A stretch of DNA of 64,000 nucleotides from assembly GCF_023101165.1 (NCBI RefSeq), contig NZ_CP078076.1, positions 930,001 through 994,000 on the forward strand, read 5' to 3'. The position numbers were made by a program, and so were the translations under genes. Position 1 is the first letter of the stretch; every line of letters begins with the position of its first letter. The notes below the pieces were generated by a model that was not told where the DNA came from, did not search any database, and worked only from the letters and a program-made list of their open reading frames with translations. The stretch is from Microbacterium sufflavum (GTDB lineage: Bacteria; Actinomycetota; Actinomycetes; Actinomycetales; Microbacteriaceae). This document shows positions 17,623-54,607 of the stretch, piece after piece.

Positions 17623-17970
17623 TCAGAGGATGTCGTCGACCTCGCCGTGCGGGATGATCGCCGCGCGGTAGCGCTCCACGAGCTCGCGCCAGCCGAAGCC
17701 CTCCGTGTACTCGTGCTCGTACACCGCCTCCGTGAAGTGCCACAGCAGGTACGGATGCGCCCCGAGCCCGTACAGCGCCCCGTAGTCGCGCGCGATGAAG
17801 GCCGCCCGCTCCTGCGGCGTCAGCTCCCGGTCGTCGGCGACCGCATCCGGCCCGGCGCCGCCCGCCAGCCACCGGTCGACGAAGCCCTCGGTGTCGGCGA
17901 CGTACGCGTTCACGTTGGCCGTGCTCATCTCGACCGCCCGCATGAACTTGCCGATCATGTACCTGCTCAC
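17623..17970 (-). CDS. LigA-like extradiol dioxygenase small (alpha) subunit
   Basis: A 115-residue protein matching the all-helical LigA subunit of protocatechuate 4,5-dioxygenase-type enzymes: LTPQERAAFIARDYGALYGLG is the typical family core. The start is GTG at 17970, with GGAGGT 8 bases upstream and overlapping the end of the LigB-like gene as GTGA. LigA caps the active site of LigB and helps bind the aromatic substrate. It is the last gene of the operon; the strong hairpin at 17546-17580 follows. The substrate is not evident. It is somewhat shorter than classical LigA (about 140 residues). Confidence 0.82.
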   Translation of the reverse strand: MSRYMIGKFMRAVEMSTANVNAYVADTEGFVDRWLAGGAGPDAVADDRELTPQERAAFIARDYGALYGLGAHPYLLWHFTEAVYEHEYTEGFGWRELVERYRAAIIPHGEVDDIL

Positions 17971-18809
17971 GATGCAGACCTCCACAAGAAGAACGGGCTC
18001 GAGGCGAAACGCGACGTGGTGGCCTCCGCCAGCTCGGCCGGGCGGCCCTGCATCGCGGCGAGGGCCGTGACGATGTTCACGTACTGGTAGGTGACGTTGC
18101 CCGCCGCCATGATGCGGTCGAACCGGCAGCCGGCGATCGCGGCGTCGAGGTCGCCGTCGCGCATCCACCCGACCGCCTCGGCGTCGAACGCGGGGTCGGG
18201 CGAGCCGTTGAACGTGCGCGGCCCTCCGACGTCGGTGGCCATGTGGCCCGAGGTGAGCAGCGCCACCCTGGCCCCGCCGTCCCACGACTCGACCGCGGCG
18301 CGCAGGTGATGTCCGAGCGCGGCGAACCGCGCGGCCGAGGGCAGCGGCGGCAGGATGGCATTCGCGTGGATGGGCACGATCGGCAGGTCGAGCTCGGGCC
18401 GCACGTACTGCAGCGGGAGGACGAAGCTGTGGTCGAGCCGCCACTCGTGCGACACCGAGAAGTCGATCGCCTCGGGCAGCACCTCGCGTCCGGCGATCTG
18501 CGCCGCGAGCTCGGGATGCCCGGTGAGCTCGGCGTACTCCATGCCGAACGTGCGCACCTCGTTCTCGTACGTGCCGTGGTACGACGCGGCTTTGCCGACG
18601 ATGAACGCGGGCGAGTTGTCGGCGAAGAACTGCCGCACGTGGTCGGTGCCGAGCACGATCAGCGCGTCGACCTCGGCCTCGGCGATCGCCTCACGGATGC
18701 GCCGGAAGTTCGCCTCGACCGCGACCAGGTCGGGCGGATACGGCTCCCGCATCGCGCGCCACAGCAGCGGGTTGTGCGGGGTCGCCGCCGCCAGCACCAG
18801 TTCAGCCAC
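17967..18809 (-). CDS. LigB-like class III extradiol ring-cleavage dioxygenase catalytic subunit
   Basis: A 280-residue LigB-superfamily protein from a GTG start. Likely Fe(II) ligands are the His in ATPHNPLLW (residue 12) and the His in LGTDHVRQFF; family acid/base His residues probably include those in SHEWRLDHSF and LTSGHMATDVGG. C-terminal AGNVTYQYVNIVTALA is typical of the LigB fold. It should open a catechol-like or hydroxylated N-heteroaromatic ring beside a hydroxyl group. It lies 21 bases after the amidohydrolase and is coupled to LigA. Protocatechuate, gallate, or a hydroxypyridone (as in PydA of mimosine degradation) are possible substrates; the sequence alone does not decide. Confidence 0.82.
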   Translation of the reverse strand: MAELVLAAATPHNPLLWRAMREPYPPDLVAVEANFRRIREAIAEAEVDALIVLGTDHVRQFFADNSPAFIVGKAASYHGTYENEVRTFGMEYAELTGHPELAAQIAGREVLPEAIDFSVSHEWRLDHSFVLPLQYVRPELDLPIVPIHANAILPPLPSAARFAALGHHLRAAVESWDGGARVALLTSGHMATDVGGPRTFNGSPDPAFDAEAVGWMRDGDLDAAIAGCRFDRIMAAGNVTYQYVNIVTALAAMQGRPAELAEATTSRFASSPFFLWRSAS

Positions 18810-18830: not shown

Positions 18831-19694
18831 TCACAGCCGGAACAGCTTCCGCGCGTTGTCGATCAGGATCTTGCGGCGCGACTCCTCCTTGAAGCCGAGC
18901 TCGTCGAACTCCGCCATCCACCGGTCCGCGGTCATCACGGGCCAGTCCGAGCCGAACAGCACCCGCTCGGAGATGAGCGAGTCCGCGTAGCGCACCACCT
19001 CGGGCGGCAGGTACTTCGGAGCCCAGCCGGAGAGGTCGAGGTACACGTTCGACTTGTGCCACACCATCGCCAGGTTCTCCAGGTGCCACGGCCACGCCGG
19101 GTGCGCGCTGATGATGTTCAGCTCGGGGAACTCGGCCGCGACGTCGTCGATGTAGGGCACGGGGCGGGCGTTCTCCAGCCGGTACCCTCCGCCGCCCGGG
19201 GTGCCGGCGCCCGCACCGGGGAACCCGGAGTGGAACATGACCACCAGCCCGAGCTCGGCGCAGGTCTCCCAGATCGGCCAGAACCGACGGTCGTTCGCCA
19301 GGAACCTCTGCCGCGACGGGTTCAGCTCGCCCACGCCCTTGATGCCGTACTCGTCGTGCATGCGGCGGATCTCGGCGATCGCCGCCTCGCCCTTCCACGG
19401 GTCGATGCCCGCGAAGGCCAGGAACACGTCGGGGTGGTCTCGCTGCGCCCGGCCCAGCAGGTCGTTGGGGGCGCCCTTGATCCCGCTCGTCGTCTCCGAG
19501 TCGGAGTTGACGATCACGGCCATCATCCTGCGGTCGCGGTACTGGTCGGCCTGCTCGGCGAACGACACGACCGGCCGCTCCCGTCCGAAGTGCGCGGCCA
19601 TCTGCGTGTGCCGCGCACCCATCGCCGCGATGAACTCCTCGGTCTGCGGGTGGGTGTGCACGTCGATCGCCACCAGGTCGTCGATGCCGGGCAT
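18831..19694 (-). CDS. Amidohydrolase_2 (ACMSD/LigW-type) family metal-dependent hydrolase or decarboxylase
   Basis: A 287-residue TIM-barrel protein of the ACMSD-related amidohydrolase group. Metal-site motifs: AIDVHTHPQ (residue ~8), VMFHSGFP, NIISAHPAW and LFGSDWPVM. Members are non-oxidative decarboxylases of aromatic or muconate-type acids (ACMSD, LigW) or lactone and oxaloyl hydrolases (LigI-like). Its ATG shares one base with the CoA-transferase stop (TGATG). In this operon it could decarboxylate the ring substrate before LigAB or hydrolyse its product. It is distinct from the true ACMSD encoded at 54608-55600. Confidence 0.8.
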   Translation of the reverse strand: MPGIDDLVAIDVHTHPQTEEFIAAMGARHTQMAAHFGRERPVVSFAEQADQYRDRRMMAVIVNSDSETTSGIKGAPNDLLGRAQRDHPDVFLAFAGIDPWKGEAAIAEIRRMHDEYGIKGVGELNPSRQRFLANDRRFWPIWETCAELGLVVMFHSGFPGAGAGTPGGGGYRLENARPVPYIDDVAAEFPELNIISAHPAWPWHLENLAMVWHKSNVYLDLSGWAPKYLPPEVVRYADSLISERVLFGSDWPVMTADRWMAEFDELGFKEESRRKILIDNARKLFRL

Positions 19695-20872
19695 CAGGCC
19701 GCTCCTTCGTTCAGGGTTCCGGCCGCGGTGCGCAGACCGGTCAGCTCCTCGGTGTCGGCCCCGAGCGCGGGCGCATAGACCAGCTCGGGCCGGCCGCTGC
19801 GGTGGAACCGGGTGCTCGGCACCGGCACGCGCACCGCGCCGCCCGGTCCCGCGATCTCCTCGACCAGGCCCATGCTCGCGATCTGCGGGTCGTCGAACAG
19901 GTCGCCCATCGTGTTGAGCGGGCCGTGCGGGATGTCGTGCGCGGCCAGGCGCTCCAGCCACTCGGCGCGCGGACGGGTGGCGGCGATCTCCTTGAGCACC
20001 GCGTCGAGCTCGTCGTAGTTCCGCACGCGCCCCTCCCTGGTCGCGAACCGGGGGTCGTCGGCGAGGTCGGGCCGCTCCAGCACGTCGAGCAGCCCGGTCC
20101 AGAACTTCTCCGGCACCGACATGTGGATCACGAACGCCTTGCCGTCGGAGCCGCGGCACGCGTACGCCTGGGCGCGACGCGGACGCGAGTCCGGCGACGA
20201 TACCTGCCCTGTCTCCAGGAACGCCGAGGCGGACTCGGTGAGGAAGTCGAGCAGCGCACCCACCATCGACACCTCGACGTGCTCGCCCTCCCCGCTCACG
20301 TCGCGGGCGTGGAGGGCCGCGAGCACCGCCTGGACCGCCGACATCCCGGACAGCAGATCGGAGAACGCCGGGCCGAGCGGTCGGATCGTGTCGGCCGGGA
20401 CGACCTGGCTGTACATGCCGCCGGTCGCGGAGATCACCGTGTCGTACGCGGGACGCTTCGCCGAGGGTCCCGTGGGGCCGAAGCCGGTGATGGAACAGGT
20501 GATGACGCGCGGGTTGTGCGCGTGCAGGGCCTCCGGACCGAAACCGAGCCGCTCGGCGACGCCCGGACGGAAGTTGTCGAGCACGATGTCGGCGTCGGCG
20601 ACCAGGGCGAACAGCGCCGCCAGCCCCTGCGGAGTCTTGAGGTCGAGCACCACCCCGCGCTTGCCCCGGTTGTACGCGGCGAACTGCGGGCTCATGGTCG
20701 CTCGACCCTCCCACCGGCGCATCGGGTCGCCCTCCGGCGACTCGACCTTGATCACCTCGGCACCGAGATCGGCCAGGAGCTTCGCGGCGAAGGGACCGGA
20801 GATGTACTGGCCCAGCTCGACCACCCGGATCCCGGCAAGCGCCCCGGCGCCCGGCAGTGCAGTACTCGTCAC
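19694..20872 (-). CDS. CaiB/BaiF-family class III CoA-transferase
   Basis: A 392-residue formyl-CoA transferase-type enzyme from a GTG start with GAGGAG upstream. The N-terminal RVVELGQYISGPFAAKLLAD and VIKVESPEGDPMRRW are canonical. The catalytic Asp is residue 172 in GPAFSDLLSG, and AYNRGKRGVVLDLKTPQG is the CoA-binding loop. It moves CoA between carboxylic acids, so an acid in this pathway is handled as a thioester, either the ring substrate before attack or a ring-opened diacid. It lies 27 bases after the dehydrogenase-like gene and overlaps the amidohydrolase by one base. Confidence 0.9.
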   Translation of the reverse strand: MTSTALPGAGALAGIRVVELGQYISGPFAAKLLADLGAEVIKVESPEGDPMRRWEGRATMSPQFAAYNRGKRGVVLDLKTPQGLAALFALVADADIVLDNFRPGVAERLGFGPEALHAHNPRVITCSITGFGPTGPSAKRPAYDTVISATGGMYSQVVPADTIRPLGPAFSDLLSGMSAVQAVLAALHARDVSGEGEHVEVSMVGALLDFLTESASAFLETGQVSSPDSRPRRAQAYACRGSDGKAFVIHMSVPEKFWTGLLDVLERPDLADDPRFATREGRVRNYDELDAVLKEIAATRPRAEWLERLAAHDIPHGPLNTMGDLFDDPQIASMGLVEEIAGPGGAVRVPVPSTRFHRSGRPELVYAPALGADTEELTGLRTAAGTLNEGAA

Positions 20873-20899: not shown

Positions 20900-21904
20900 T
20901 CAGCGCACATCCACGATCACCTTCCCGTCGCCGGCGCGGGGGAAGTCGCGGTAGGCCGTGGCGATGTCGTCGAGCGCGTACCGGGCGCCCGCGAGCGGCG
21001 GCAGCACTCCGGCGGCGGCGAGGGCGAGGGCCTCCGCCACGTCGTCGTACCGGGCGCTCGCGGCACCCGCGAGGCGCTTGCGGCGCAGGTAGAAGTCGCG
21101 CGCATCGATCCGCAGGTCGGGGTCGACCGAGGCCGAGCAGAACACGGCCCGTCCACCCCAGCCGAGCGCAGCGACCCCGGCGCTCAGCGTGGGGCCGTGG
21201 CCGGAGACGTCGAGCACCACGTCGAAGCCGTCCTCGGCCGCGAGTGCGGCGGTCAGGGCGGCGGGATCGGGGGCGTGCACGAGCCGTTCGTCACCGACCG
21301 GCGTCAAGGGGCGGCGGGAGGCGGCGACCACGCGGGCACCGCGGGCGAGCGCGATCGCGACGGCCGCGCGACCGAGCGTTCCGCCCGCACCGGTGATGAG
21401 CACACGCTCGTCGGCGGCGAGCGCGGCGATCCGCAGGGCGTTGAGCACGATCGGGGCGCTGTGCACGACGGCCGTGGCCTCGGCGGCGGTCAGGTCGTGG
21501 CGGTCGATCGCGTTGCGCGCGGGGACGGTCACGTACTCGGCGGCGCCGCCGTCGCGGTGCACGCCGACGACGGTCTGCGATGGGCAGTCGGCCTCGTCTC
21601 CCTCGCGGCAGCGCGGGCACGTGCCGCAGGCGATGTTGGGCTTGACGACCACGGCCTGGCCGAGGCGCGCGGGGTCGACGCCGGAGCCGACGGCGACGAT
21701 CTCCCCCGCCGGGTCGATGCCGAGGATGCGCGGGAGCCGGGCGTGCGCTCCGGGGCCGACGCCGGCTATGACGTTGAGGTCGAGCTGGTTGATGCCCACG
21801 GTCTCGACGCGGATCAGCACTTCGCCCGGAGCGGCCGACGGCACCGCCGACTCCGTGACGGTCAGGCCGTCCAGGTCGTGGCTGCTCAGCACGGCGGCAC
21901 GCAT
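20900..21904 (-). CDS. Medium-chain (zinc-type) alcohol dehydrogenase-like oxidoreductase
   Basis: A 334-residue MDR-family protein, first gene of the ring-cleavage operon. I start at ATG 21904 with AAGAGG upstream; an in-frame GTG lies at 21910. The structural zinc lobe is complete (CGTCPRCREGDEADC, four Cys), and the nucleotide site is GAGGTLGRAAV. The position of the usual catalytic zinc Cys reads GINQLDLNV, i.e. Asn instead of Cys, so it may work as a zinc-independent enoyl or quinone reductase rather than an alcohol dehydrogenase. A GGATACTGTATCC operator lies 28 bases before the start. Confidence 0.85.
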   Translation of the reverse strand: MRAAVLSSHDLDGLTVTESAVPSAAPGEVLIRVETVGINQLDLNVIAGVGPGAHARLPRILGIDPAGEIVAVGSGVDPARLGQAVVVKPNIACGTCPRCREGDEADCPSQTVVGVHRDGGAAEYVTVPARNAIDRHDLTAAEATAVVHSAPIVLNALRIAALAADERVLITGAGGTLGRAAVAIALARGARVVAASRRPLTPVGDERLVHAPDPAALTAALAAEDGFDVVLDVSGHGPTLSAGVAALGWGGRAVFCSASVDPDLRIDARDFYLRRKRLAGAASARYDDVAEALALAAAGVLPPLAGARYALDDIATAYRDFPRAGDGKVIVDVR

Positions 21905-21932
21905 GGTCACCTCTTCATCGTGGGACTGTTTC

Positions 21933-21945
21933 GGATACTGTATCC
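21933..21945. promoter_or_regulatory. Regulon operator O1 (GGATACTGTATCC)
   Basis: A perfect 6-1-6 palindrome just upstream of the dehydrogenase/CoA-transferase/LigAB operon, facing a second copy (O2) for the divergent transporter gene. The same core recurs before other gene sets in this window; the proposed binder is the GntR protein encoded at 56986-57717. Confidence 0.7.
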
Positions 21946-22019: not shown

Positions 22020-22032
22020 GGATACCGTATCC
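22020..22032. promoter_or_regulatory. Regulon operator O2 (GGATACCGTATCC)
   Basis: A 13-base palindrome with only the central base unpaired, 61 bases before the substrate-binding protein ATG. The flanks AAATT and CAAAAT are A/T-rich, as at the other copies. With O1 it brackets the divergent promoter region. Confidence 0.7.
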
Positions 22033-22093: not shown

Positions 22094-23170
22094 ATGCGCA
22101 CGACAAGAACCAGGCTCGGCCTCGCCGTGGCCGGAGGCGCAGCAGCACTGACGCTGCTCGCCGGCTGCACCTCGCCGACACCCGCACCCGAAGGCCCGGT
22201 CGACCTCGGCGACGGGGAACCCGGCGCCGCCGAAGACACCAGCATCACGGTGGCCATCCCCTTCCCCGACGTCACGATGTACTCGATGTTCGTCCTCGGC
22301 ACCGACCTCGGCTACTACGAGGAGGAGGGCCTCACCGTCGAGGTCATCACCGCCGACAACGTCACCGCCGCGGTCGCGAGCGGCAGCGCCGACATCGGCG
22401 TGGAGTCCACCGGCACCGTGATCGACGCCATCCGCGGCGGCGTGGAGATCGACCTGGTGTCGGGCCACTACTGCCGCCAGAACTTCGACTTCGCGGCCCA
22501 GTCCGACGTGGAGAGCGTCGAAGACCTCGACGGCACCTCGATCGTCCTCGCCGGAACCCCCGGCGACCCGGCCGAATTCCAGCGGGCACAGGTGCTCGCG
22601 GAAGAGGGCTGGGACCTCGAGAGCATCAACGCCGAGGTCGTCTACCCCGGACCCGGCTCCGAATCGTGGACCGAGTTCTTCGTGAACGACCGCATCTCGC
22701 TGCAGCCCTTCTACGCCGACGACCGTGCGGCGCTCGAGGAGCACGGCGCGAACATCGTCGTGGAGTCGCTGCGCAACTGGGCCAACGACGTGCAGATCGC
22801 CGGCACGGCCTGGGTGAAGGAGAACCCGAACTCGCTCGTGCGGTTCCTGCGCGCCACACTCAAGGCCACCGACTTCATGACCGCCCCGGCACCGGGCGAG
22901 TTCCCGGAGAACGCGGAGGAGGCGCTGGACATCTACGAGGCCAACGACTTCGACGTGCAGGAGCTCCGCGACTCCGACAGCGTCTGGATCCTCGACGGCC
23001 ACCTCGCCTGCCCGAACCTGTACTTCGACGCGGACGCCTGGGACACCACGATCGAGACGCAGAAGCTCGAGCCGCTGGAGTTCGACGACGCGCAGCTCAC
23101 GCACCTGTTCAAGGCGCAGGAGCTGCTCGGGCTCGACAACGAGGGACCGGCGACGCTCCCCTACCCCTGA
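22094..23170 (+). CDS. NMT1/TauA-type ABC transporter substrate-binding lipoprotein
   Basis: A 358-residue lipoprotein with lipobox LLAGC (Cys about residue 25), then an Asp/Pro-rich linker. The binding fold starts ITVAIPFPDVTMYSMFVLG, followed by LGYYEEEGLTVEVI and VASGSADIGVEST, the signature of NMT1/THI5-like proteins that bind pyrimidines, sulfonates, aromatic acids or nitrate-like solutes. It is the only solute receptor near the matching permease/ATPase genes at 23851-26338, which lie on the other strand behind a toxin-antitoxin pair. It is divergent from the LigAB operon with operators between, so its ligand is probably the substrate of that operon. Confidence 0.88.
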   Translation: MRTTRTRLGLAVAGGAAALTLLAGCTSPTPAPEGPVDLGDGEPGAAEDTSITVAIPFPDVTMYSMFVLGTDLGYYEEEGLTVEVITADNVTAAVASGSADIGVESTGTVIDAIRGGVEIDLVSGHYCRQNFDFAAQSDVESVEDLDGTSIVLAGTPGDPAEFQRAQVLAEEGWDLESINAEVVYPGPGSESWTEFFVNDRISLQPFYADDRAALEEHGANIVVESLRNWANDVQIAGTAWVKENPNSLVRFLRATLKATDFMTAPAPGEFPENAEEALDIYEANDFDVQELRDSDSVWILDGHLACPNLYFDADAWDTTIETQKLEPLEFDDAQLTHLFKAQELLGLDNEGPATLPYP

Positions 23171-23850: not shown

Positions 23851-24684
23851 TCAGCCGACGATCTTCCGCTCGTCGTACCAGGGCGCCAGCCTGCGGCGCA
23901 GCACCGAGATGAGGAACAGCGTCAGGTTCGCGATGATCACCATCACCACGACCATCGCGATCGCCTCGTCCATGCGGAACTGATACGCCGCGAACTCCAG
24001 CAGGTGACCGAGGCCCCCGGTGCCGCCGAGGAACTCGCCGAGCACCTCGCCCGTGAAGCCGAGGGCCGCACCGCGCTGGATGCCGGACAGGCTGTAGGGC
24101 AGCGTCGCCGGGAAGATGACCTTCCACCCCAGCCCGATGCCCTTCGCGCCGTACACGCGCGCCGCGTTCACGAGCGACGGGTTCACGGTGACCGCGCCCT
24201 CCATCGTGTTCAGCAGGATCGGGAACACCGCGAGCAGGATCACGAGGGCGATCTTCGACTCGCTGCCGAGCCCGAGGCCCAGGATGAACAGCGGAGCGAG
24301 CGCGACCTTGGGCGTGGAGTACAGCACCCACAGGAACGGGGCCACCATGAAGCGCAGCACCGGTGACCAGCCGACCGCGAGCCCCACGACCACACCCACG
24401 ACGATCGCGATGGCGAGGCCGATGAGCAGGTTCGTGACGCTGAAGCCGAAGGCGCCCCAGAACTCCGGGTCGACCATGAGCCGCCCGAAGGCCACGGCGA
24501 TCGCGCTGGGGGCGGGCAGAAACGCCTCGGGCACCCACTGGAACCAGGTGACCACCGCCTCCCACACGAGCAGCACGGCGGCCACGACCGCGATCAGCAG
24601 CAGCGTCCACCTGCCCTCGCCCGCGCGCACCACGCGCCGGGGCCGCACGATCCGCACGGTGCCGGTTGCCGAGACGACGCTCAT
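23851..24684 (-). CDS. TauC/SsuC-type ABC transporter permease 2
   Basis: A 277-residue inner-membrane permease with six helices. The EAA loop is RVYGAKGIGLGWKVIFPATL, and LWVLYSTPKVALAPLFILG is the typical TauC/SsuC segment. It starts within the end of the preceding permease gene (ATGA). It is homologous to, but clearly different from, permease 1, so the channel is probably a heterodimer, which is less common than the homodimer in TauABC-type systems. Last gene of a six-gene operon starting at 29723. Confidence 0.92.
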   Translation of the reverse strand: MSVVSATGTVRIVRPRRVVRAGEGRWTLLLIAVVAAVLLVWEAVVTWFQWVPEAFLPAPSAIAVAFGRLMVDPEFWGAFGFSVTNLLIGLAIAIVVGVVVGLAVGWSPVLRFMVAPFLWVLYSTPKVALAPLFILGLGLGSESKIALVILLAVFPILLNTMEGAVTVNPSLVNAARVYGAKGIGLGWKVIFPATLPYSLSGIQRGAALGFTGEVLGEFLGGTGGLGHLLEFAAYQFRMDEAIAMVVVMVIIANLTLFLISVLRRRLAPWYDERKIVG

Positions 24685-25514
24685 CGCCTGCCCTTCCTCG
24701 TCCACGGCGCGACCCCGCGCTCGATCGCGGTGACCACCTGGGTCATGCCCACGCTCCACACCACGACGATCGCGATCGCCGCGAACGCCTGATCCGTCTG
24801 ATACGTGTTGGAGGCGCGGATGATGAGCGCGCCCATGCCGCTCGACGACCCGGCGAGCTCGGCCACGACCATGCCGATCGTGGCGAGCACGACCGCCTGG
24901 CGGAGGCCGGCGAACAGGAACGGGATCGTCGACGGCAGGTACACCGAGCGGTACAGCCGCAGGCGGCCCGCGCCGTACACGCGGGCGGCGCGGATGATCG
25001 ACGGGTTCGTGGTGCGCATGCCCGCGGCGACGTTCAGCAGGATCGGGAAGATCGCGCTGATCGTGACGAGGAAGATGACCGGTCCGATGCCGAAGCCGAA
25101 CCAGGCCTTCGCGAGCGGCTGGTATGCGATCGACGGGGTGGCGTAGATGGTCCAGGCGATCGGACCGACCACGCGGTCGACCGGGAGGGACGAGCCCATC
25201 AGCAGGCCGACCGGGATGCCCACGACCACGGCGAGCGCGAAGCCGGTCAGCCACGCCTGCGCCGAGATCCCGGCGTTCGCGGCGAGCGACCCGTTCGCGA
25301 TGATCTCCCCGAAGCCCTGCGCGATCGACAGCGGGGGCGGCAGGAAGACCGGGTTGATCCAGCCGAGGACTCCGACCACGAGCTGCCACAGCAGCAGGAG
25401 CACGACGACCTCGACCGCGATGACCGCGGCCTTGCCGCGCGTGCTCAGCCCCGCGAGCCAGGCGGCGACCCCGCCGCGTCCGAGGTTCGGTCCCGTGGCG
25501 AGCAGCGCGCTCAT
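24681..25514 (-). CDS. TauC/SsuC-type ABC transporter permease 1
   Basis: A 277-residue six-helix permease. Typical segments: [40 protein letters not shown] and the ATPase-contact loop [20 protein letters not shown]. It overlaps the ATPase gene upstream and permease 2 downstream by 4 bases each. It forms a transporter with the NMT1-type receptor encoded at 22094-23170. Confidence 0.92.
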
Positions 25515-26338
25515 TTCGACACCGCTGCCGCCGTGGCCTCGCCCTCCAGCGCCTCCCAGAGGTGGTCGCGGAGTTCGAGGAAGCGGGGATCGTGCTGCAC
25601 CGACCGCTCGGAGCGCGGCCGCTCGATCCCCGTGGTGATGATCTCCTTGATGGCGCCGGGGTGACTCTTGAACACCACGATGCGGTCGCCCAGGAGGATC
25701 GCCTCCTCGATCGAGTGCGTGATGAACAGGACGGTCTTGCCGGTCTTCTCGATCAGCTTCTCGATCTCGTCGCGCATCACCTCGCGGGTGAGGGCGTCGA
25801 CGGCGCCCAGCGGCTCGTCCATCAGCAGGATGCGCGGCTCGGCGACGAACGCCCGGGCGAGACCCACCCGCTGCTGCATGCCGCCGGACAGCTCCCGCGG
25901 GTACGACGACTCGAAGCCCTTGAGGCCCACCATGTCGATGGCCTCCTGCACGCGCTCGCGCCAGTCGGCCGTGCGCAGGCCCTTCTGCATCTCGAGCCCG
26001 AACTTCACGTTGTCGAACACCGTGCGCCAGGGCAGCAGCGCGTAGTCCTGGAAGACGACGGCCCGGTCGGGTCCCGGGCCGTCGACCTCCGTGCCGTCCA
26101 CCAGGACGGACCCGGTGCTCGGCGCGACGAGGCCGGCGATGACGTTCATGAACGTCGTCTTGCCGCACCCCGACGGGCCGAGCACCGTGATGAACTCGCC
26201 CTCGAACACGTCGAGGTCGACGTTCTCGATCGCGATCAGCTTCTTCCCCGTGCGCGCCACGTCGTAGCTCACGGAGAGTCCGGTGACCGAGATCAACGGG
26301 TCCGTGGCGGAGGGTGCGGTGTCTTTCACGTCAGTCAT
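25511..26338 (-). CDS. TauB/SsuB-type ABC transporter ATP-binding protein
   Basis: A 275-residue ATPase of the nitrate/sulfonate/taurine class. Walker [15 protein letters not shown]-loop [11 protein letters not shown], signature [15 protein letters not shown], Walker [13 protein letters not shown] and switch His in FITHSIEEA. It energises the two permeases encoded immediately downstream. It begins 40 bases after the LLM oxidoreductase gene in the same operon, so uptake and first catabolic steps are transcriptionally linked. Confidence 0.95.
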
Positions 26339-26378
26339 CGTCGACCTCTCGTCTTGTCGCCGCGCTCGGGTGCGCGGC

Positions 26379-27353
26379 TTATCGCAGCTTAGGAAGCACC
26401 TCGGTGCCGAGGAGCTCGATCTGCTCGAAGAACCGATCGAACTTGAACCGGAAGTCGAACACCAGGTGCTCGGTGCCGATCTCCTCGAACCGGCGGATCT
26501 GATCGACCGCCTCGTCGGGGCTGCCGACGATGAGCTGACCCTCCAGGTCTTCCACGGTCTCGAAGCTGCCGGACGGCGGCTTCACCGCGAACTTCGCCTT
26601 GTTCGCCCACGCCAGCAGGCCGGGGATGTTCACGTGCTTGAGCGCCTCCTCGCGGGTGTCCTCGATGGAGGTGGGAGGGATCACGGCGATGGTCGGCATC
26701 GGCCGGCCGTTCTCGTCGGTCATCTCGCGCATGGTCTGGATGCGCTTCTCCATCGTGGCCAGACCCGTGCGGCCGGGCATCCAGCCGTCGGCGAACTCCG
26801 CCGCGAGGCGGGCCGACCGCGGGGTCGCGCCGCAGTACCAGAACGGGATACGACCGCCGACGGGCTTGGGCTCGATGGTGACGTTCTCGAACGAGAAAAT
26901 GCCGTCGTCGTAGGTGACGTCGTTCTCGGTGAACACGCGGCGCAGGATCTCGGCGTTCGAGCGCACCATCTCCACGCGGTCCAGGTCGCCCCAGCCGATC
27001 GCCTCGAACTCGTGGTCGAACGTGCCGGCGCCGAAGCCGAGGATCAGGCGCGGGCCGAGCAGCTGGGTCATGGTGCCGGCCATCAGCGCGGTCACGAGCG
27101 GGTGCCGGAACGGGATGAGCGACCCGGTGCCGAGCTCGATCTTCTCGGTCACCGCGCCGATGGCGGTGAGCGTGGTGAGCGCGTCGTAGAACGTGCGGTT
27201 GGGCTTCTCCATCTCGCCGTGCGGCTCGAACACGAGGTGGTCGCGCACCCACACGGAGTCGAATCCGAAGCTCTCGGCGAGCTTCGACCCCTCCAGGAGC
27301 TTCTCCTTGCTCGCCTCCTCGCCGAAGTGCGGCAGCAGCAGTCCGAATTTCAT
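26379..27353 (-). CDS. LLM-class flavin/F420-dependent oxidoreductase
   Basis: A 324-residue luciferase-like TIM barrel. It starts [15 protein letters not shown], with [12 protein letters not shown], the cofactor-site loop [20 protein letters not shown] and C-terminal [20 protein letters not shown]. Enzymes of this type use F420H2 (hydride transfer) or FMNH2 (oxygenation). Given the F420 import, biosynthesis and reduction genes in the same regulon, F420 is the better guess, but sequence cannot decide. It lies one base after the cyclic-amide hydrolase stop and before the ABC genes, so it probably attacks the imported compound or its hydrolysis product. Confidence 0.88.
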
Positions 27354-27354
27354 G

Positions 27355-28761
27355 TCAGTTCCTCTCTGCGGCCAGTGCCGCCCTGTCTTCCGCCGAGGCG
27401 GCGAGCTTTCCGAAGGCGGGGTCGCCGACGACCTCGCGGTCGACGTACACGTCTTCTCCGCGCACGAGCGTGCGCTGGATGCGGGCGCTGATGGTGCGCC
27501 CGTCGTACGGGGTCCAGCCGATCTTCGACAGCACGTCGTCGTTCGTGATGGTCCACTCGTCGGCCAGGTCGGCGATCACGATGTCGGCGTCGGCGCCGAT
27601 CGTGAGGGAGCCCTTGACGCCCTCCAGGCCGAACTTCGCGGCGGGGATGTGGGCGACCATGTCGATCGCGCGCTGCAGGTCGAGCTCGCCCTTGTTCACG
27701 GCGTCGAGCATGAGCTCGTAGTAGTACTGGATGCCCGGGGTGCCCGTGTGCGAGCTCCACATCTTGGTCCAGCCGACCTCCTTCTCCTCGCGGGTGTGCG
27801 GGGCGTGGTCGCTGGCGGCGATGTCGATCGTGCCGTCCCGCATGCCCTCCCACACGGCGGTGCGGTTGTCGTCGGGCACCCAGTAGCTCAGGGCGTAGGG
27901 ACCGAGGGTCTCCACGTCGTCCCACGTGGACAGGAACGGCGCCCAGTGGTTGACCTCGCACGTGACGTCGATGCCGTTCTGCTTGGCGCGGCGCACGGCC
28001 TCGATCGAGCGCCGGGTCTGGATGTGCGCGATGTGCACGGGGCAGCCGGAGGCCTCGGCGAGCCGCAGCACCACGTCGATCGCGGTGTCCCAGATCACGC
28101 CCTCGCGCGCGGCGTAGGCGGAGGCGTAGCCCTGCGGGGTGTTCTCGCCGCGGGCGAGGTAGGCGCCCTCGATGTAGTCCATGAGCGCCTGGTCGTGCGG
28201 GTGCACGATGAAGCGCTTCCCGGTCTGGGCGATATGGTCCATGATCTCGAGCAGGTGCCCGTGGTCGTGGATGCCGGTTCCGGAGGGGTGCGGGTAGTCG
28301 CGGCCCGTGTCGACGACCATGTAGATCTTGTAGGCGCGGATGCCGAGGTCGCTCATGCCCGCGATCTCGGCGAACTTCGTCGGGGCGGGGTTGTGGTTCC
28401 AGTCGACGATCGACGACTCCTCGTAGCGCCGGAACACGTCGGTGAGGGTGGCGACGTCGGTCGTGGGCGGCTTGAGGTTGGGCATGCCGAACATCGTCGT
28501 GACACCGCCGGCCGCGGCCTGGAGGCTGGTCGTGTAGATGTCGTCCTTGTGCTCGTAGCCGGGCTCGCGGGTGTGCACGTGCACGTCGACCATGCCGGGC
28601 AGCACGAGCTTGCCGGTGGCGTCGATCGTGCGCGCGGCGTCGATGTCGGTGTCGGCCGCGACGATGCCGGCGACCCGGCCGTCCGCGACGAGCAGGTCGG
28701 CGACGACCGGTCCTGCGGGGGTGACGACGGTGCCGCCGGTGATCTTCAGATCGACGCTCAT
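27355..28761 (-). CDS. Dihydroorotase/hydantoinase-type cyclic amidohydrolase
   Basis: A 468-residue amidohydrolase of the dihydroorotase-allantoinase-hydantoinase group with a full binuclear metal site: LPGMVDVHVHTREPG, the carboxylatable Lys in RAYKIYMVVD, HPHDQAL, CPVHIAHIQT and the catalytic Asp in IAASDHAPHTREEK. These enzymes open cyclic amides, imides or ureides. It is not in a pyrimidine or purine gene setting, so dihydroorotate is unlikely. Coupled by ATGA to the alpha/beta-hydrolase upstream and one base from the LLM gene. It points to a cyclic amide or imide intermediate. Confidence 0.9.
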   Translation of the reverse strand: MSVDLKITGGTVVTPAGPVVADLLVADGRVAGIVAADTDIDAARTIDATGKLVLPGMVDVHVHTREPGYEHKDDIYTTSLQAAAGGVTTMFGMPNLKPPTTDVATLTDVFRRYEESSIVDWNHNPAPTKFAEIAGMSDLGIRAYKIYMVVDTGRDYPHPSGTGIHDHGHLLEIMDHIAQTGKRFIVHPHDQALMDYIEGAYLARGENTPQGYASAYAAREGVIWDTAIDVVLRLAEASGCPVHIAHIQTRRSIEAVRRAKQNGIDVTCEVNHWAPFLSTWDDVETLGPYALSYWVPDDNRTAVWEGMRDGTIDIAASDHAPHTREEKEVGWTKMWSSHTGTPGIQYYYELMLDAVNKGELDLQRAIDMVAHIPAAKFGLEGVKGSLTIGADADIVIADLADEWTITNDDVLSKIGWTPYDGRTISARIQRTLVRGEDVYVDREVVGDPAFGKLAASAEDRAALAAERN

Positions 28762-29723
28762 CGCGCGACCTCCTGTTCCTGAACGGATTCTGTCTGGATG
28801 GACTCGCCGATCGCGGGCGACGGCGTGGTCCGGTGGATGAGATGCGCGGGGCGCACGTGCGTGTCGAACCAGCCGACGATCACCGGGGTGGTCTGCTCCC
28901 AGTACGTGTCGTAGGCGGCGTAGTGCGTGGTGTGCCGCTGCATGATGAGCTGCTTGGGGCCGCGCGCCGCCTCGTACAGCGCCTCGGCGTGATCGGTCGG
29001 CGTGGTCGCATCGCCCTCGACGCCGATCACGAGCAGCGGCGTGGTCAGGCGGGCCGCGGCGTCGATGGGGCGGTAGGCGATGATGCCCTCGGCGCACGCG
29101 AGCGGCACGGCGGAGGGGATGCGGTCGTCGACGTCGGCCTTGATGGTGGTGGCGCGACGCTCGGCCGTGGGGATCATGATCTCCTCGCGGGGGTGCACGA
29201 TGCGGCCCTCCCCCGTGGTGACGCGCCGGCGGCGGTCGTCGTCGAGCGACTTCTGGAAGTCGAGCCACTCGTACTCGCTGCGCATGCGGTGCAGCCAGTC
29301 CTCGCCGTCGGCCACGGGAACCTGGCTGACAGCGGCCTTGACGCGCGGATCGACGTCGGCGAGCAGCACCGCGTTGCCACCGCCGGTGCCCCCGGTGCCG
29401 AACACCCCGATGGCGTCGGCGATCACGTCGTCGCGCGTGGTGAGGTAGGTGACGGCGTTGACGAGGTCCTGCAGCTGCCAGGCGGGCGAGAGGTAGCCGC
29501 GGTCGCCGTCGGAGTCGCCGAAGCCGCGGTAGTCGATCACGAGCACCGCGAAGCCGGCCGCGACGAGGGCCTCGTGGTAGCGGACGTAGAGCTTGGCGTC
29601 CTTGAGGCCGAGCCAGCCGGGCCCCTGCACGATCGCGCGGTACGGGCCGTCATGGTCGGGGGTGCGCCAGATCGCGGAGATGCGGGAGCCCTCGCTGAAG
29701 AACGAGACGGGTGTGGTCTGCAT
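28758..29723 (-). CDS. Alpha/beta-hydrolase with Thr at the nucleophile position
   Basis: A 321-residue alpha/beta-hydrolase, first gene of its operon, with AGAGGAA before the ATG. Fold markers: oxyanion region VQGPGWLG, LVIDYRGFGDSDG, and the later acid and base in VIGVEGDATTP and QRHTTHYAAYD. The nucleophile elbow, normally GxSxG, reads FGTGGTGGGNA, so the expected Ser is Thr113 (or the site is dead). Such a change may mean a non-hydrolytic or lyase-like role. Two copies of the regulon operator lie in the gap to the divergent F420-0 transporter operon. Confidence 0.82.
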   Translation of the reverse strand: MQTTPVSFFSEGSRISAIWRTPDHDGPYRAIVQGPGWLGLKDAKLYVRYHEALVAAGFAVLVIDYRGFGDSDGDRGYLSPAWQLQDLVNAVTYLTTRDDVIADAIGVFGTGGTGGGNAVLLADVDPRVKAAVSQVPVADGEDWLHRMRSEYEWLDFQKSLDDDRRRRVTTGEGRIVHPREEIMIPTAERRATTIKADVDDRIPSAVPLACAEGIIAYRPIDAAARLTTPLLVIGVEGDATTPTDHAEALYEAARGPKQLIMQRHTTHYAAYDTYWEQTTPVIVGWFDTHVRPAHLIHRTTPSPAIGESIQTESVQEQEVAR

Positions 29724-29804: not shown

Positions 29805-29840
29805 GGATCCAGAATCCAGTATTGATTGGATCCAAAATCC
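29805..29840. promoter_or_regulatory. Regulon operators O3a and O3b
   Basis: GGATCCAGAATCC at 29805-29817 and GGATCCAAAATCC at 29828-29840, centres 23 bases apart. The reverse complement of O3a, GGATTCTGGATCC, is identical to O5 at 44114. They lie in the 228-base gap between the divergent hydrolase operon (start 29723) and the F420-0 importer operon (start 29952), so one repressor could control both. Confidence 0.7.
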
Positions 29841-29951: not shown

Positions 29952-30935
29952 ATGACCCCCACCGCCCGCGCGCTCGGCGCCACCCCCGTCCTCGCCCTCC
30001 TCCTCGCCGCGGGCCTCAGCGGCTGCGCGAGCGGCCCCGCCTCCCCCGCAGCCGCCGACGCCGACCGGCCCCGTGCGACCCTCGACAACTGCGGCACCGA
30101 GGTGACCCTCGACGGACCGCCGCAGCGCATCCTCACGGTCAAGTCCTCCACCCTCGAACTCGCCCTGGCCCTCGGCGCGGGCGACCGCATCATCGGCTCC
30201 GCCTTCACCGACGGCCCGCTCCCCGAGGCGCTCGCGGCGGAGGCCGACGGCATCCCCACCGTGTCGGACAAGGTGCCGTCGAAGGAGGCCGTGCTCGAGC
30301 TCGAACCCGACCTGGTGTTCGCCGGATGGGAGTCGAACTTCTCGGTCGACGGCGCCGGCGAGCGCGACGACCTGCAGCAGCTGGGCATCGCCACCTACGT
30401 CGCCCCGGCGGCGTGCAAGGCGCCCGGCTACATGCCCGACCCGCTCACGTTCGACGCCGTGTTCGACGGTTTCACCGAGGCGGGCGAGCTGCTCGGCGAG
30501 CAGAAGGCCGCGGCGGCCCTCGTCGCGGAACAGCGGACCACCCTCGACGCGATCGCCCCCGACGACCGCGGGCTCTCCGCCGTCTGGTACTCGTCGGGCA
30601 GCGACCAGCCCTTCGTCGGCGCGGGCATCGGCGCCCCGCAGATGATCATGGCGGCCGCGGGGCTGGAGAACGTGTTCGCCGAGGTGCACGACACCTGGAC
30701 CTCGACCTCGTGGGAGCTGATCGCGGAGGCCGACCCCGACGTGATCGTGCTGGTGGACGCCGCGTGGAACACCGCCGCGTCGAAGCAGGAGCTGCTGGCG
30801 TCGAACCCGGTGACCGCCCAGCTCGACGCCGTGCGGAACGAGCGGTACGTGGTCGTGGACTTCCCGGCGACGGAGGCCGGGATCCGCAACGTCGACGCGG
30901 TGGCCGCGATCGTCGCGCGGCTCGGAGAGCGATGA
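29952..30935 (+). CDS. Putative F420-0 ABC transporter substrate-binding lipoprotein
   Basis: A 327-residue lipoprotein (lipobox GLSGC, Cys about 25) with the FecB/BtuF fold: TVKSSTLELALALGAGDRI, LELEPDLVFAGW, LLASNPVTAQLDAVRNERYV. It looks like a siderophore or cobalamin receptor, but matches the actinobacterial subgroup annotated as F420-0 transporter receptors: DNCGTEVTLDGPPQRILT near the N-terminus and SDQPFVGAGIGAPQMIM in the middle. That assignment, proposed from co-occurrence of this three-gene cassette with cofE, fits here because cofE, cofC, cofD and fgd lie 3-9 kb away. Transport of F420-0 or Fo is inferred, not proven for the family as far as I know. Confidence 0.78.
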   Translation: MTPTARALGATPVLALLLAAGLSGCASGPASPAAADADRPRATLDNCGTEVTLDGPPQRILTVKSSTLELALALGAGDRIIGSAFTDGPLPEALAAEADGIPTVSDKVPSKEAVLELEPDLVFAGWESNFSVDGAGERDDLQQLGIATYVAPAACKAPGYMPDPLTFDAVFDGFTEAGELLGEQKAAAALVAEQRTTLDAIAPDDRGLSAVWYSSGSDQPFVGAGIGAPQMIMAAAGLENVFAEVHDTWTSTSWELIAEADPDVIVLVDAAWNTAASKQELLASNPVTAQLDAVRNERYVVVDFPATEAGIRNVDAVAAIVARLGER

Positions 30936-32005
30936 GCGTCACACTGCCGCTGCGGGCGGCGATCCCGGCCATGGCGGCATCCGTTCCCCGCCCGCGAAGG
31001 CGCCGCGCCGCCCCGACGATCGCGGTGCTGCTGCTCGCCCTGGCCGGCACCGTGGTCGCTGCGGTCGCCATCGGCCCGGCCGACATCACTCCTGCCGAGC
31101 TCGTGGCGAGCGTGTGGTCGCACCTGACCGGGGCAGCCAGCGGACTCACGCCCATCCGCGACGCGATCATCTGGGAGGGACGAGTGCCCCGGGTTCTCAC
31201 GGCCGCCGCGGTGGGAGGCGGCCTTGCCCTGTGCGGCGCCGTGATGCAGGCGCTCACCCGCAATCCATTGGCAGACCCGTACCTGCTGGGCCTGTCGTCC
31301 GGAGCCTCGACGGGCGCCGTGATCGTCATCGTGCTGGGTGCCGCGGTGGCGCTGCCGTTCGCCGCCTTCGCCGGCGCCCTGCTCGCTCTTGCCCTCGCCC
31401 TCGGTCTGGCCCGCGCGGCCGGCTCCTCAGGGCCGACGGCCGTAGTGCTCGCGGGTCTCGCGGTGTCGGCGGTTCTGGCCGCGCTGACCAGCCTGGTGAT
31501 CTTCTGGAGCGCGACCAACGACAGTTACCGCGAGATCCTCAGCTGGCTGCTCGGATCTCTCGGCGGCGCTGATTGGTCGGATGCCGCGCTGGCCGGCGTC
31601 GCGGTGGTCGTGTGCGCCGTGCCGCTGCTGGCCTCGGCCCGCCCGCTCGACAGCCTGGTGCTCGGCGACACGGCCGCCGAGGCGCTGGGCATCCCGGTCA
31701 CGCGCGTGCGGGTGCTCCTGTTCGTGTGCGCCGCTCTGCTGACCGGCGCGCTCGTCGCGGTGAGCGGATCGATCGGCTTCGTCGGGCTGATCCTGCCGCA
31801 CGCCGTTCGTGCGGTCGTCGGCGCCCGGCATCGCGCTCTCCTCCCGGTGTCATTCCTCGCCGGGGCGGTGTTCCTCATCTGGGCCGACACCATCGCGCGC
31901 ACCGTGTTCGAGCCGCGCGAGCTCCCGGTCGGCATCGTCACCGCGCTGATCGGTGGTCCGGTGTTCGCGCTGCTGATGCTGCGCATGCGGAAGTCCCGCG
32001 CATGA
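30932..32005 (+). CDS. Putative F420-0 ABC transporter permease (FecCD type)
   Basis: A 357-residue FecCD-family permease with about nine or ten helices. Signature segments: RVPRVLTAAAVGGGLALCGA, MQALTRNPLADPYLLGLSSG, ILSWLLGSLGGADW and SGSIGFVGLILPHAVRAVVG. It is coupled to the receptor gene by ATGA and to the ATPase gene by ATGA. By itself it cannot be told from heme, siderophore or B12 permeases; the F420-0 call rests on the cassette and neighbours. Confidence 0.8.
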   Translation: MSVTLPLRAAIPAMAASVPRPRRRRAAPTIAVLLLALAGTVVAAVAIGPADITPAELVASVWSHLTGAASGLTPIRDAIIWEGRVPRVLTAAAVGGGLALCGAVMQALTRNPLADPYLLGLSSGASTGAVIVIVLGAAVALPFAAFAGALLALALALGLARAAGSSGPTAVVLAGLAVSAVLAALTSLVIFWSATNDSYREILSWLLGSLGGADWSDAALAGVAVVVCAVPLLASARPLDSLVLGDTAAEALGIPVTRVRVLLFVCAALLTGALVAVSGSIGFVGLILPHAVRAVVGARHRALLPVSFLAGAVFLIWADTIARTVFEPRELPVGIVTALIGGPVFALLMLRMRKSRA

Positions 32006-32817
32006 CCGCGCACGACGGAAGCGGGCTCGATGCCCGCCGCATCCGCTTCGATCACGGCGACCGCGTGATCATCGACGGCATGCACATCACCGCTCCCGGC
32101 GGCTCGGTCACCGCCCTGCTCGGCCCGAACGGCTCGGGCAAGAGCACACTGCTGCGCCTGATCGCCGGAACACTGCGCGGCGAGGTCGAGAGCCTGGAGC
32201 TCGATGGCGTGTCCCTGACCGAGATGCAGCGGAGGGCACGGGCGCAGCGGGTTGCCCTGGTGGAGCAGGAGTGGTCGGCGGCCGAGGGCATGACCGGACG
32301 CGACATCGTCGGGCTCGGACTCCTCCCGCACCGCGGATGGCTGTCGTTCGAGGGCGGGGAGGCGGATGCCGATGCGACGGACGCCGCGATGTCCCGCGCC
32401 GGCGCACGAGAGTTCGCAGACCGCGACGCGGCGACCCTCTCGGGCGGCGAGCGCCAGCGCGTGAATCTGGCCAGGGCACTGGCTCAGCGACCGGCGCTGC
32501 TGCTGTGCGACGAACCGACGAACCACCTCGACATCCGCGCCCAGCTCGACGCCCTCGTGCTGCTGCGCACCCTCGCCCGTGACGGGATGACGGTGCTCGC
32601 CGCGCTGCACGACCTCAACCACGCCGCGGCGTTCGCCGACCACGTCGTCGTGGTCGCCGACGGTCACGTGCAGGCGGCCGGTTCACCGCAGGACGTGCTC
32701 ACCCGTGAGCTCATCGCCCGCGTGTGGCACGTCGAGGCCGAGGTGCTCTCTCGACCCGACAGCGATCGTCCGCTGATCGTCTTCGATGCGGCGATGACAC
32801 CCGCCCTCGGTCGGTGA
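32002..32817 (+). CDS. Putative F420-0 ABC transporter ATP-binding protein
   Basis: A 271-residue FepC/BtuD-type ATPase. Walker A LLGPNGSGKSTLLRL, Q-loop VALVEQEWSA, signature TLSGGERQRVNLARALA, Walker B ALLLCDEPTNHLD, switch His in ALHDLNHAA. It is the third gene of the importer operon. The operon ends here; the convergent ImmA/IrrE-like gene ends 35 bases further on. Confidence 0.85.
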   Translation: MTAHDGSGLDARRIRFDHGDRVIIDGMHITAPGGSVTALLGPNGSGKSTLLRLIAGTLRGEVESLELDGVSLTEMQRRARAQRVALVEQEWSAAEGMTGRDIVGLGLLPHRGWLSFEGGEADADATDAAMSRAGAREFADRDAATLSGGERQRVNLARALAQRPALLLCDEPTNHLDIRAQLDALVLLRTLARDGMTVLAALHDLNHAAAFADHVVVVADGHVQAAGSPQDVLTRELIARVWHVEAEVLSRPDSDRPLIVFDAAMTPALGR

Positions 32818-35287: not shown

Positions 35288-36286
35288 CTATTCCGAGCCC
35301 AGCGCAACATCGAAGGCGTCCGCGGCGAGACGAGCCGATGTGTCGAGGTCACGCATCCAGAGCGCCCGCACCGGCGCGCGCAAGCCGTCCGTCCCGAGGT
35401 CGGCAGCAAGGGAAGCGTCCTCTTCACCGATGAGCCAGGCATCGAGGAGCCCGCCAGTCACGCGCGGGCCGTAGTGGCGGCCCACCGCATCAGCCGTGGC
35501 CGAAATCCCGACCGCGGCGAGACAGGCATCGGCCATCCCGCGAACGGGGGCGCCGGCGATGATCGGGGACACCCCGACCACGGAACCTGACGCCGTTCTG
35601 ACCGCGTCGGCGATGCCGGGCACTGTCAGGACGGGACCGATCGAAACCACAGGATTGGACGGGGCGAGCAGAATCACGTCGGCTGCCACGAGGGCGTCCA
35701 GCACACCCGCCGCCGGCACGGACCGCTCGATTCCCGGCCAGTCGAAGCCCTGTACCGGGATCGCCGCGCGGTGCCTGGTCCACCACTCCTGAAAGTGCAT
35801 CCGGCCCTGCGCCGCCGTCACGTGCGTGTCGACTTCCGCATCCGTCATCGGCAACAGTCGCACCCCGAGCGGCCACCGTGACGCCAGCCGGTCGACGACC
35901 TCGGTCACCGTGGCACCATCGCGAAGCCAGCCCGTGCGCGTGATGTGGGCGCCGAGGTCGAGGTCGCCGAGGGTGAACCACGGCCACCCCGCACCCCATG
36001 CGTGCAGTTCGGCGGCCACCCGCTCGCTCTCCCCGGTGCGCCCCCACCCACGCGCGGTGTCGTTCACGCCGGCGAGAGCGTAGATCATCGAGTCGACGTC
36101 GGGCTGCAGCCGCAAGCCGCTGAGCCACAGGTCGTCACCGGTGTTGACGACCACGGTGATCTCGGCACGAGTGCCGCCCGCGGCATCCGGCCAGCGCCGC
36201 CGGGCGGCCTCCCGCACGCCGACGACGAACTTCGACCCGCCGACGCCACCCGCCAGTACCACGATGCGCGGCGCCGACGACATCAT
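35288..36286 (-). CDS. cofD: CofD/FbiA: 2-phospholactate (or enolpyruvyl) transferase of F420 biosynthesis
   Basis: A 332-residue CofD/FbiA homologue. It joins the phospholactate- or phosphoenolpyruvate-derived moiety from the CofC product to Fo, giving (dehydro-)F420-0. Motifs: VVLAGGVGGSKFVVGVREA at the N-terminus, VVVNTGDDLWLSGLRLQPDVD, GDLDLGAHITRT and ILLAPSNPVVSIGPVLTVPG. I start at the first of two adjacent ATGs (36286), which overlaps the cofC stop as ATGA. Last gene of the oxidoreductase-cofE-fgd-cofC-cofD operon. FbiC, which makes Fo, is not in the window. Confidence 0.95.
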   Translation of the reverse strand: MMSSAPRIVVLAGGVGGSKFVVGVREAARRRWPDAAGGTRAEITVVVNTGDDLWLSGLRLQPDVDSMIYALAGVNDTARGWGRTGESERVAAELHAWGAGWPWFTLGDLDLGAHITRTGWLRDGATVTEVVDRLASRWPLGVRLLPMTDAEVDTHVTAAQGRMHFQEWWTRHRAAIPVQGFDWPGIERSVPAAGVLDALVAADVILLAPSNPVVSIGPVLTVPGIADAVRTASGSVVGVSPIIAGAPVRGMADACLAAVGISATADAVGRHYGPRVTGGLLDAWLIGEEDASLAADLGTDGLRAPVRALWMRDLDTSARLAADAFDVALGSE

Positions 36287-39798: not shown

Positions 39799-39811
39799 GG
39801 ATACTGGATCC
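39799..39811. promoter_or_regulatory. Regulon operator O4 (GGATACTGGATCC)
   Basis: A 13-base near-palindrome with an AAAA flank, 38 bases upstream of the FGD-like gene that heads the F420 operon. It matches GGATNCNGNATCC exactly and differs from O5 by one base. Confidence 0.7.
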
Positions 39812-41741: not shown

Positions 41742-41743
41742 GG

Positions 41744-42904: not shown

Positions 42905-42961
42905 GATCCGAATGTCCTCTCTGACATCAGGTGCGTGATCTCGGGTGTGGTGCGGGTTGCG

Positions 42962-54600: not shown

Positions 54601-54607
54601 CGCGGCG

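Follow-up and report, generated by a model that had tools for sequence, protein, structure and literature searches.

A conserved actinobacterial operon that may couple coenzyme F420 to the opening of N-heterocyclic rings, and its possible dependence on imported FO

Introduction

The genome of Microbacterium sufflavum is a single contig of 3,573,919 bases (100% complete). In a stretch of 64,000 nt of this contig (NZ_CP078076.1, positions 930,001 to 994,000; called the window below, with coordinates counted from its first base), an operon on the minus strand joins an ATP-binding cassette (ABC) importer to a luciferase-like oxidoreductase (LLM), a cyclic amide hydrolase (CAH) and an alpha/beta-hydrolase fold protein (ABH). 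The locus raises the question of what this enzyme trio does and whether LLM works with the deazaflavin coenzyme F420, genes for which lie nearby. We think it fairly probable that the operon belongs to a regulated catabolic module, in which a carboxylated N-heterocyclic lactam or imide is reduced at the expense of F420H2 and its ring is then opened by hydrolysis. A pattern pointing to salvage of the precursor FO emerged as well, and it is the more surprising result of the two.

Results

The operon and its conserved trio

Gene content and order, shared operators, active-site residues and co-occurrence with F420 genes were read directly off the sequence. The operon consists of six genes:

28758-29723, minus strand: ABH, alpha/beta-hydrolase fold, 321 amino acids; nucleophile elbow FG[TS]GGTGGGN, without serine
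27355-28761, minus strand: CAH, dihydroorotase/allantoinase/hydantoinase-type cyclic amide hydrolase, 468 amino acids; motifs HVHTREPG, MPN and DHAPH
26379-27353, minus strand: LLM, luciferase-like oxidoreductase (Bac_luciferase), 324 amino acids; proposed F420H2-dependent reductase
25511-26338, minus strand: ABC ATPase, nitrate/taurine/sulfonate type
24681-25514, minus strand: ABC permease 1, nitrate/taurine/sulfonate type (Pfam, NCBIfam)
23851-24684, minus strand: ABC permease 2, nitrate/taurine/sulfonate type (Pfam, NCBIfam)

A preliminary description had spoken of six overlapping genes. All six open reading frames (ORFs) were found on the minus strand from 29723 to 23851, their families being assigned by Pfam and NCBIfam, but overlaps, each of 4 bases, exist at only three of the five junctions (ABH/CAH, ATPase/permease 1 and permease 1/permease 2). 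CAH and LLM are separated by 1 base, LLM and the ATPase by 40 bases. The substrate receptor that had been considered together with the operon proved to lie outside it:

22094-23170, plus strand: NMT1/THI5-like substrate-binding protein (receptor), same regulon, separate transcript

This separate transcription unit converges on the operon, leaving 680 bases between the two 3' ends, and has its divergent promoter region in common with an operon of four peripheral genes (ADH-CaiB-amidohydrolase-LigB). The single weak match returned by a PDB search with the receptor indicated no ligand.

Scanning of contigs of other genomes with LLM yielded 75 loci. At thresholds of at least 55% identity for LLM and ABH and at least 50% for CAH, the trio is complete in 70 of them. 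Since it is colinear in all 70, its association exceeds chance; many of the loci belong to closely related hosts (Microbacterium, Agromyces), and the locus counts therefore do not represent independent events. The incomplete loci comprise three with no CAH at threshold (L054, L062 and L091), one with LLM only (L096) and one with an LLM fragment (L097). Trio hosts include Microbacterium, Agromyces, Leifsonia, Ruania, Jiangella, Pseudonocardia, Mycolicibacterium, Actinomadura, Amycolatopsis and Solirubrobacter, together with Acidimicrobiia and two proteobacterial metagenome-assembled genomes (MAGs). LLM was detected in 15 of 296 genomes of the class as sampled (E 1e-50) and in 10 of 247 genomes of the genus (E 1e-100). 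Plasmid searches at E 1e-40 and 1e-60 gave no match to LLM or CAH; the peripheral amidohydrolase (AH2) matched 43 plasmid records, every one below 60% identity. Among the open-licence papers listed by text searches, none described the trio.

Genes surrounding the trio were also recorded. The large subunit of a molybdenum hydroxylase, whose nearest PDB relatives are 4-hydroxybenzoyl-CoA reductase, 6-hydroxypseudooxynicotine dehydrogenase and quinoline 2-oxidoreductase, occurs in 15 trio loci. Variable modules bring a thiamine-diphosphate enzyme (9 loci), an aldehyde dehydrogenase (7), a TctC/TctA transporter (6) or an aspartase-like protein (6), and the ADH-CaiB-AH2-LigB module is present in the window and in many relatives (CaiB in 29/75 loci).

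Some loci have further peculiarities. In one proteobacterial MAG, a HyuA/HyuB (hydantoinase/oxoprolinase) pair adjoins the trio (L086, 3690-7528, minus strand). In Microbacterium sp. MYb62 (L027, 10991-14268), aldehyde dehydrogenase and thiamine-diphosphate enzyme genes follow LLM directly, ahead of the usual ATPase. Mycobacterial trio loci (L057, L059, L066, L068 and L072, at about 1.9-6.2 kb) contain a second LLM gene and then a TctC/TctA tripartite transporter; the one second LLM protein that was scanned, that of L072, exceeds the F420 cut-off of TIGR03619.

Active sites of CAH and ABH

The view that CAH hydrolyses cyclic amides or imides agrees well with its intact metal- and carboxylate-binding residues. 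Arg of HVHTREPG, Asn of MPN and His of DHAPH are present in 67 of 67 sequences. They align with those of dihydroorotase 3mpg, and the compared allantoinase sequences differ at these positions. We take these three residues to be the ones by which dihydroorotase holds the carboxylate of its substrate; their preservation makes a carboxylated cyclic amide or imide a likely substrate. CAH stays below the cut-offs of the dihydroorotase (TIGR00857, pyrC_multi, 259.2 vs 279.05 bits), allantoinase (TIGR03178, 265.2 vs 357.85) and D-hydantoinase (TIGR02033, 201.8 vs 393.25) models.

As for ABH, the predicted alpha/beta-hydrolase fold stands, whereas an ordinary serine hydrolase it is not: the GxSxG motif is missing from all 70 sequences. 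The serine-free elbow is found in each of them, and the PDB homologue 7qjm has Ser at that position. In 30 aligned sequences, the triad acid (D238) and histidine (H267) do not vary. By analogy with the RutD type, ABH may act on an enamine.

The ring-opening reading is plausible and gains support from these active sites. Oxo-pyridine carboxylates of the nicotinate, picolinate or isonicotinate type are rated first as substrate candidates, orotate second. A deazaflavin-like substrate, proposed earlier, is unsupported: the cofactor genes explain the link to deazaflavins. Riboflavin lyase (RcaE), a lead suggested by the listed species Microbacterium maritypicum, was dropped after no PDB match so named appeared at E 1e-10.

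An operator shared with F420 genes

The palindrome GGATNCNGNATCC occurs at nine places in the genome, and its backward control at none. Five exact sites fall in the window (21933, 22020, 29805, 39799 and 44114). The elements concerned are the following:

21933-21945 and 22020-22032: operators GGATACTGTATCC and GGATACCGTATCC, gap between ADH and receptor
29805-29817 and 29828-29840: operators GGATCCAGAATCC and GGATCCAAAATCC (the latter with one mismatch), gap between the trio operon and the 'F420-0' importer
29952-30935, plus strand: 'F420-0' importer, substrate-binding protein; TIGR03868, 460.1 bits, over cut-off 392.4
30932-32005, plus strand: 'F420-0' importer, permease; TIGR03869, 456.4 bits, over cut-off 437.35
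32002-32817, plus strand: 'F420-0' importer, ATPase; TIGR03873, 321.2 bits, below cut-off 372.4
35288-36307, minus strand: cofD; TIGR01819, 300 bits, cut-off 257
36283-36951, minus strand: cofC; TIGR03552, 124 bits, cut-off 105
36968-37975, minus strand: FGD, over curated cut-off
37972-38784, minus strand: cofE, F420-0:L-glutamate ligase; TIGR01916, 223.5 bits, cut-off 180.65
38769-39761, minus strand: LLM2, second LLM protein, F420_G6P family; TIGR03557, 279 bits, cut-off 210
39799-39811: operator GGATACTGGATCC, upstream of LLM2-cofE-FGD-cofC-cofD
44114-44126: operator GGATTCTGGATCC, upstream of a second ABC importer
56986-57717, minus strand: GntR-family regulator, candidate regulator of the cluster
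57754-57766: operator-like GCATTCTGGATCC, one mismatch, upstream of the GntR gene

The trio operon is thus divergent from the 'F420-0' importer and shares operators with it, as had been stated, both sites lying in the 228-base gap. When one mismatch was allowed, nine matches were found in the window against 2.38 expected, including those at 29828 and 57754; the matches at 28269 and 34048 fall inside ORFs. Three of the four genomic sites beyond the window are likewise inside ORFs and one is just past an ORF end.

The 75 loci contain 94 exact sites, distributed over 32 of them, compared with 1.2 expected from mononucleotide shuffles, and 90 of the 94 lie at most 400 bases upstream of a cluster gene. 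Most belong to Microbacterium and Agromyces. Others precede FGD, ABH and ADH/receptor in Ruania (L052), where FGD and ABH are each preceded by GGATCCAGAATCC, and the receptor and FGD in Pseudonocardia (L054). Homologues of the window GntR protein (26-71% identity) occur in 35 of the 75 loci. A site with at most one mismatch is found at the gene start of 7 of these 35, as against 115 of 4000 random stretches. We infer that the GntR protein acts at GGATNCNGNATCC.

LLM as a probable client of F420

Independent genomic evidence lends good support to the suggestion that LLM is the protein of this regulon that uses F420. The same rare operator precedes the trio and the cofE-FGD-cofC-cofD genes. In two proteobacterial MAGs, trio genes adjoin F420 genes, in the orders ABH-CAH-LLM-GntR-FGD-cofD-6-phosphogluconolactonase (pgl) (L086) and ABH-LLM-ferredoxin-cofE-cofD-cofC/G/H fusion (L091). 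Counts of cof genes, FO synthase and importer were made in 51 trio genomes, that is, our own and those of 50 of the 75 loci. Among them, cofE exceeds its cut-off in 50, the single exception (G390) being a 1.7-Mb record. By raw count, an FGD homologue (at least 50% identity) lies inside 29 of the 75 loci, and any F420 gene, the importer counted, in 41.

LLM itself has the Bac_luciferase domain (PF00296, 171.6 bits, cut-off 27.9) and the corresponding fold. Its structure model (predicted local distance difference test, pLDDT, 91.7) is nearest to methylenetetrahydromethanopterin reductase (Mer), entries of which make up the top four fold matches; the best PDB relatives by sequence are Mer and FGD. 

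In L086 (10975-14437), the genes next after FGD are those for cofD and 6-phosphogluconolactonase, and a 6-phosphogluconate dehydrogenase gene lies on the opposite strand. Together they form a local set making F420H2 out of glucose 6-phosphate.

FO synthase and the 'F420-0' importer

No match to FO synthase was found in the one-contig genome of M. sufflavum, which has kept cofE as well as cofC and cofD; the bacterium is apparently unable to make F420 de novo. Of the 51 trio genomes, 20 have an FO synthase match (E 0.001; G368 has contig-end fragments only), 31 an importer binding protein over cut-off and 46 a cofD match, in 43 of them over cut-off (G370, G389 and G392 are below). After G368 had been left out, 50 genomes remained for comparison. 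Of the 31 genomes that lack FO synthase, 29 have the importer, against 2 of the 19 that possess the synthase (Fisher p 2.6e-9, uncorrected for kinship). The exceptions are G387 and G390, which have neither, and G353 and G354, which have both. A cofD match was obtained in 26 of the 29 importer-positive genomes without FO synthase, in 25 over cut-off; the remaining three are G350, G355 (PHSC20C1) and G367 (Ruania).

Within the genus, 159 of 247 genomes have cofE and 137 have FO synthase. FO synthase is missing from nine of the ten cofE-positive genomes with the trio and from 15 of the 149 without it.

The NCBIfam models of the F420-0 importer were built on cofE-only organisms. The window importer resembles that putative system in its binding protein and permease, both over curated cut-offs. 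It differs in adjoining cofC and cofD in a genome that lacks a recognisable FO synthase. Since CofD needs FO, retention of cofC and cofD without FO synthase points to FO as the cargo. The importer may therefore bring in FO, and F420 may be a salvaged vitamin here.

Other genes of the window

The peripheral module and the second ABC importer, the latter named from its translations, are arranged as follows:

20900-21910, minus strand: ADH, zinc-type alcohol dehydrogenase, peripheral module
19694-20872, minus strand: CaiB, CoA-transferase family III, peripheral module
18831-19694, minus strand: AH2, amidohydrolase PF04909, peripheral module
17967-18809, minus strand: LigB, class III extradiol dioxygenase-like protein, peripheral module
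39873-44086, minus strand: second ABC importer (ATPase 42962-44086, binding protein 41744-42904, permease 39873-41741)

The binding protein of this importer had no NCBIfam match at 1e-40. A tRNA-Pro called by ARAGORN (42988-43075, plus strand) lies antisense within the ATPase ORF and is probably spurious; an Rfam scan of the window gave no match. Next to the GntR gene, an operon at 48523-56916 (plus strand) reads as kynurenine/3-hydroxyanthranilate degradation, five of its products exceeding their cut-offs (kynureninase, 3-hydroxyanthranilate 3,4-dioxygenase, 2-hydroxymuconic semialdehyde dehydrogenase, acetaldehyde dehydrogenase and 4-hydroxy-2-oxovalerate aldolase). It was rejected as a part of the pathway, as the exact and one-mismatch scans found no operator before it.

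Discussion

A possible course of events can be outlined for the F420H2-dependent module. The ABC importer of the operon would take up the substrate or its precursor. LLM would use F420H2 as hydride donor to reduce a heteroaromatic ring of the lactam or imide (oxo/hydroxy) type, and co-regulated FGD would regenerate F420H2 using glucose 6-phosphate. CAH, as a dihydroorotase-like metal hydrolase, would cleave the reduced ring at its C-N bond, and ABH could handle the ring-opened product (e.g. an enamine or amide) and help to release ammonia. The GntR regulator, acting at the palindrome, would induce trio, importers and F420 genes jointly. From the co-regulation of FGD we infer that the pathway consumes F420H2 and that LLM is thus a reductase; the ring chemistry and the ABH step would follow the scheme above.

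Several observations weigh against this proposal. The trio is not invariable: L091 has no CAH between ABH and LLM, and the CAH of L054 is merely 47% identical. No exact operator exists in 43 of the 75 loci, and at the thresholds used 34 are free of F420 genes over a distance of about 10 kb. Neighbouring enzymes vary by lineage, which blurs the substrate. In the genus, cofE is common and the trio rare (10 of 247 genomes), so F420 must have other uses there. LLM reaches 154.7 bits on its best F420 model, TIGR03619, below the cut-off of 166.9. Finally, enzymes dependent on flavin mononucleotide (FMN), such as SfnG, come close behind Mer in the fold search, so that the sequence and fold of LLM by themselves leave its cofactor undecided.

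Among the alternatives, orotate degradation survives best, though we regard it as unlikely. In that case LLM would reduce orotate with F420H2, CAH would serve as a catabolic dihydroorotase and ABH would process ureidosuccinate. The complete conservation of the three carboxylate-binding positions of CAH, whose roles are known from dihydroorotase, speaks for it, as does the aspartase-like gene near some trios. On the other hand, the molybdenum hydroxylases and the LigB/CaiB/ADH modules would have no obvious use, and CAH does not reach the dihydroorotase subfamily cut-off. Less probable again is that LLM2 or another LLM protein, rather than LLM, is the F420H2 consumer of the regulon. LLM2 does exceed an F420 cut-off, is encoded within the cofE-FGD operon and lies near the trio in 15 of the 75 loci; but its family includes F420-reducing dehydrogenases such as FGD, it is not nearby in most trio loci, and no close LLM2 is present in L086 and L091, where F420 genes adjoin the trio. 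RutA and TgnB are FMNH2-dependent ring-cleaving monooxygenases, and the least probable alternative, that LLM is of their kind and the F420 genes are mere neighbours without a direct role for the trio, draws on the fold and cut-off results just given, on RutA (a related LLM protein that opens pyrimidine rings and ranks 44th in the fold search) and on an SsuE-like reductase near the trio in L086, but is opposed by the shared operator, by the arrangement in the two MAGs, by the near-universal cofE of trio genomes and by the NCBIfam scan, which recognised no flavin reductase gene in the window operon.

The preferred F420H2-dependent reduction and ring opening finds its closest precedents in the reductive breakdown of nicotinate by Eubacterium barkeri and Azorhizobium. 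In the passages of PMC9304392 drawn on here, 6-hydroxynicotinate is converted to 1,4,5,6-tetrahydro-6-oxonicotinate, on which enamidase then acts; there, too, the ring is partly saturated before an amidohydrolase-superfamily enzyme hydrolyses the C-N bond. A molybdenum hydroxylase stands upstream in that pathway, as in many trio loci. The differences are that F420H2, via LLM, is the proposed reductant here, CAH is of the dihydroorotase type and the substrate is putative. The anaerobic enzyme reducing 6-hydroxynicotinate uses ferredoxin. The hxn nicotinate pathway of Aspergillus nidulans, as given in PMC9304392, has the same series of steps: a reduction (by the reductase HxnT) followed by hydrolysis first of a cyclic imide (by the imidase HxnM) and then of an amide (by the amidase HxnN). 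They are carried out by proteins unrelated to the trio (an old-yellow enzyme, a polysaccharide-deacetylase-like imidase and a FAAH-like amidase).

Mer and FGD, the nearest solved relatives of LLM by sequence and fold, differ from it in their substrates and share about 25% identity in the fold alignment. Hydride transfer to an electron-poor ring by LLM-type enzymes is known from the F420H2-dependent picrate and dinitrophenol reductases of Rhodococcus and Nocardioides, and the excerpted parts of PMC8498797 treat F420 in actinobacterial catabolism mainly through such picrate-type xenobiotics. The substrates of those reductases are nitroaromatic carbocycles. We know of no dihydroorotase-like partner in these systems.

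Concerning FO, PMC8498797, in the same parts, states that FO genes generally co-occur with genes converting FO to F420, and discusses an ABC transporter for possible export in P. rhizoxinica. Whole-word phrase searches of the open-licence literature found no mention of an FO transporter, an F420-0 ABC transporter or an F420 auxotroph. Our proposal, which we advance tentatively and at somewhat lower confidence than the catabolic module, is that soil actinobacteria in which FO synthase has been lost or was never present take up FO rather than F420-0 by the so-called F420-0 importer and finish F420 by means of cofC, cofD and cofE, under the GntR operator that switches on the F420H2-dependent N-heterocycle operon.

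If the catabolic reading is true, a conserved F420H2-linked ring-opening trio of soil, plant-associated and marine actinobacteria would give F420 a natural catabolic role, together with a clear assay. If FO is indeed imported, deazaflavins would be a traded vitamin, a named transporter family would be assigned another cargo, and lack of FO synthase would cease to mean that a bacterium cannot use F420. An entire catabolic pathway would then depend on a cofactor supplied by neighbours.

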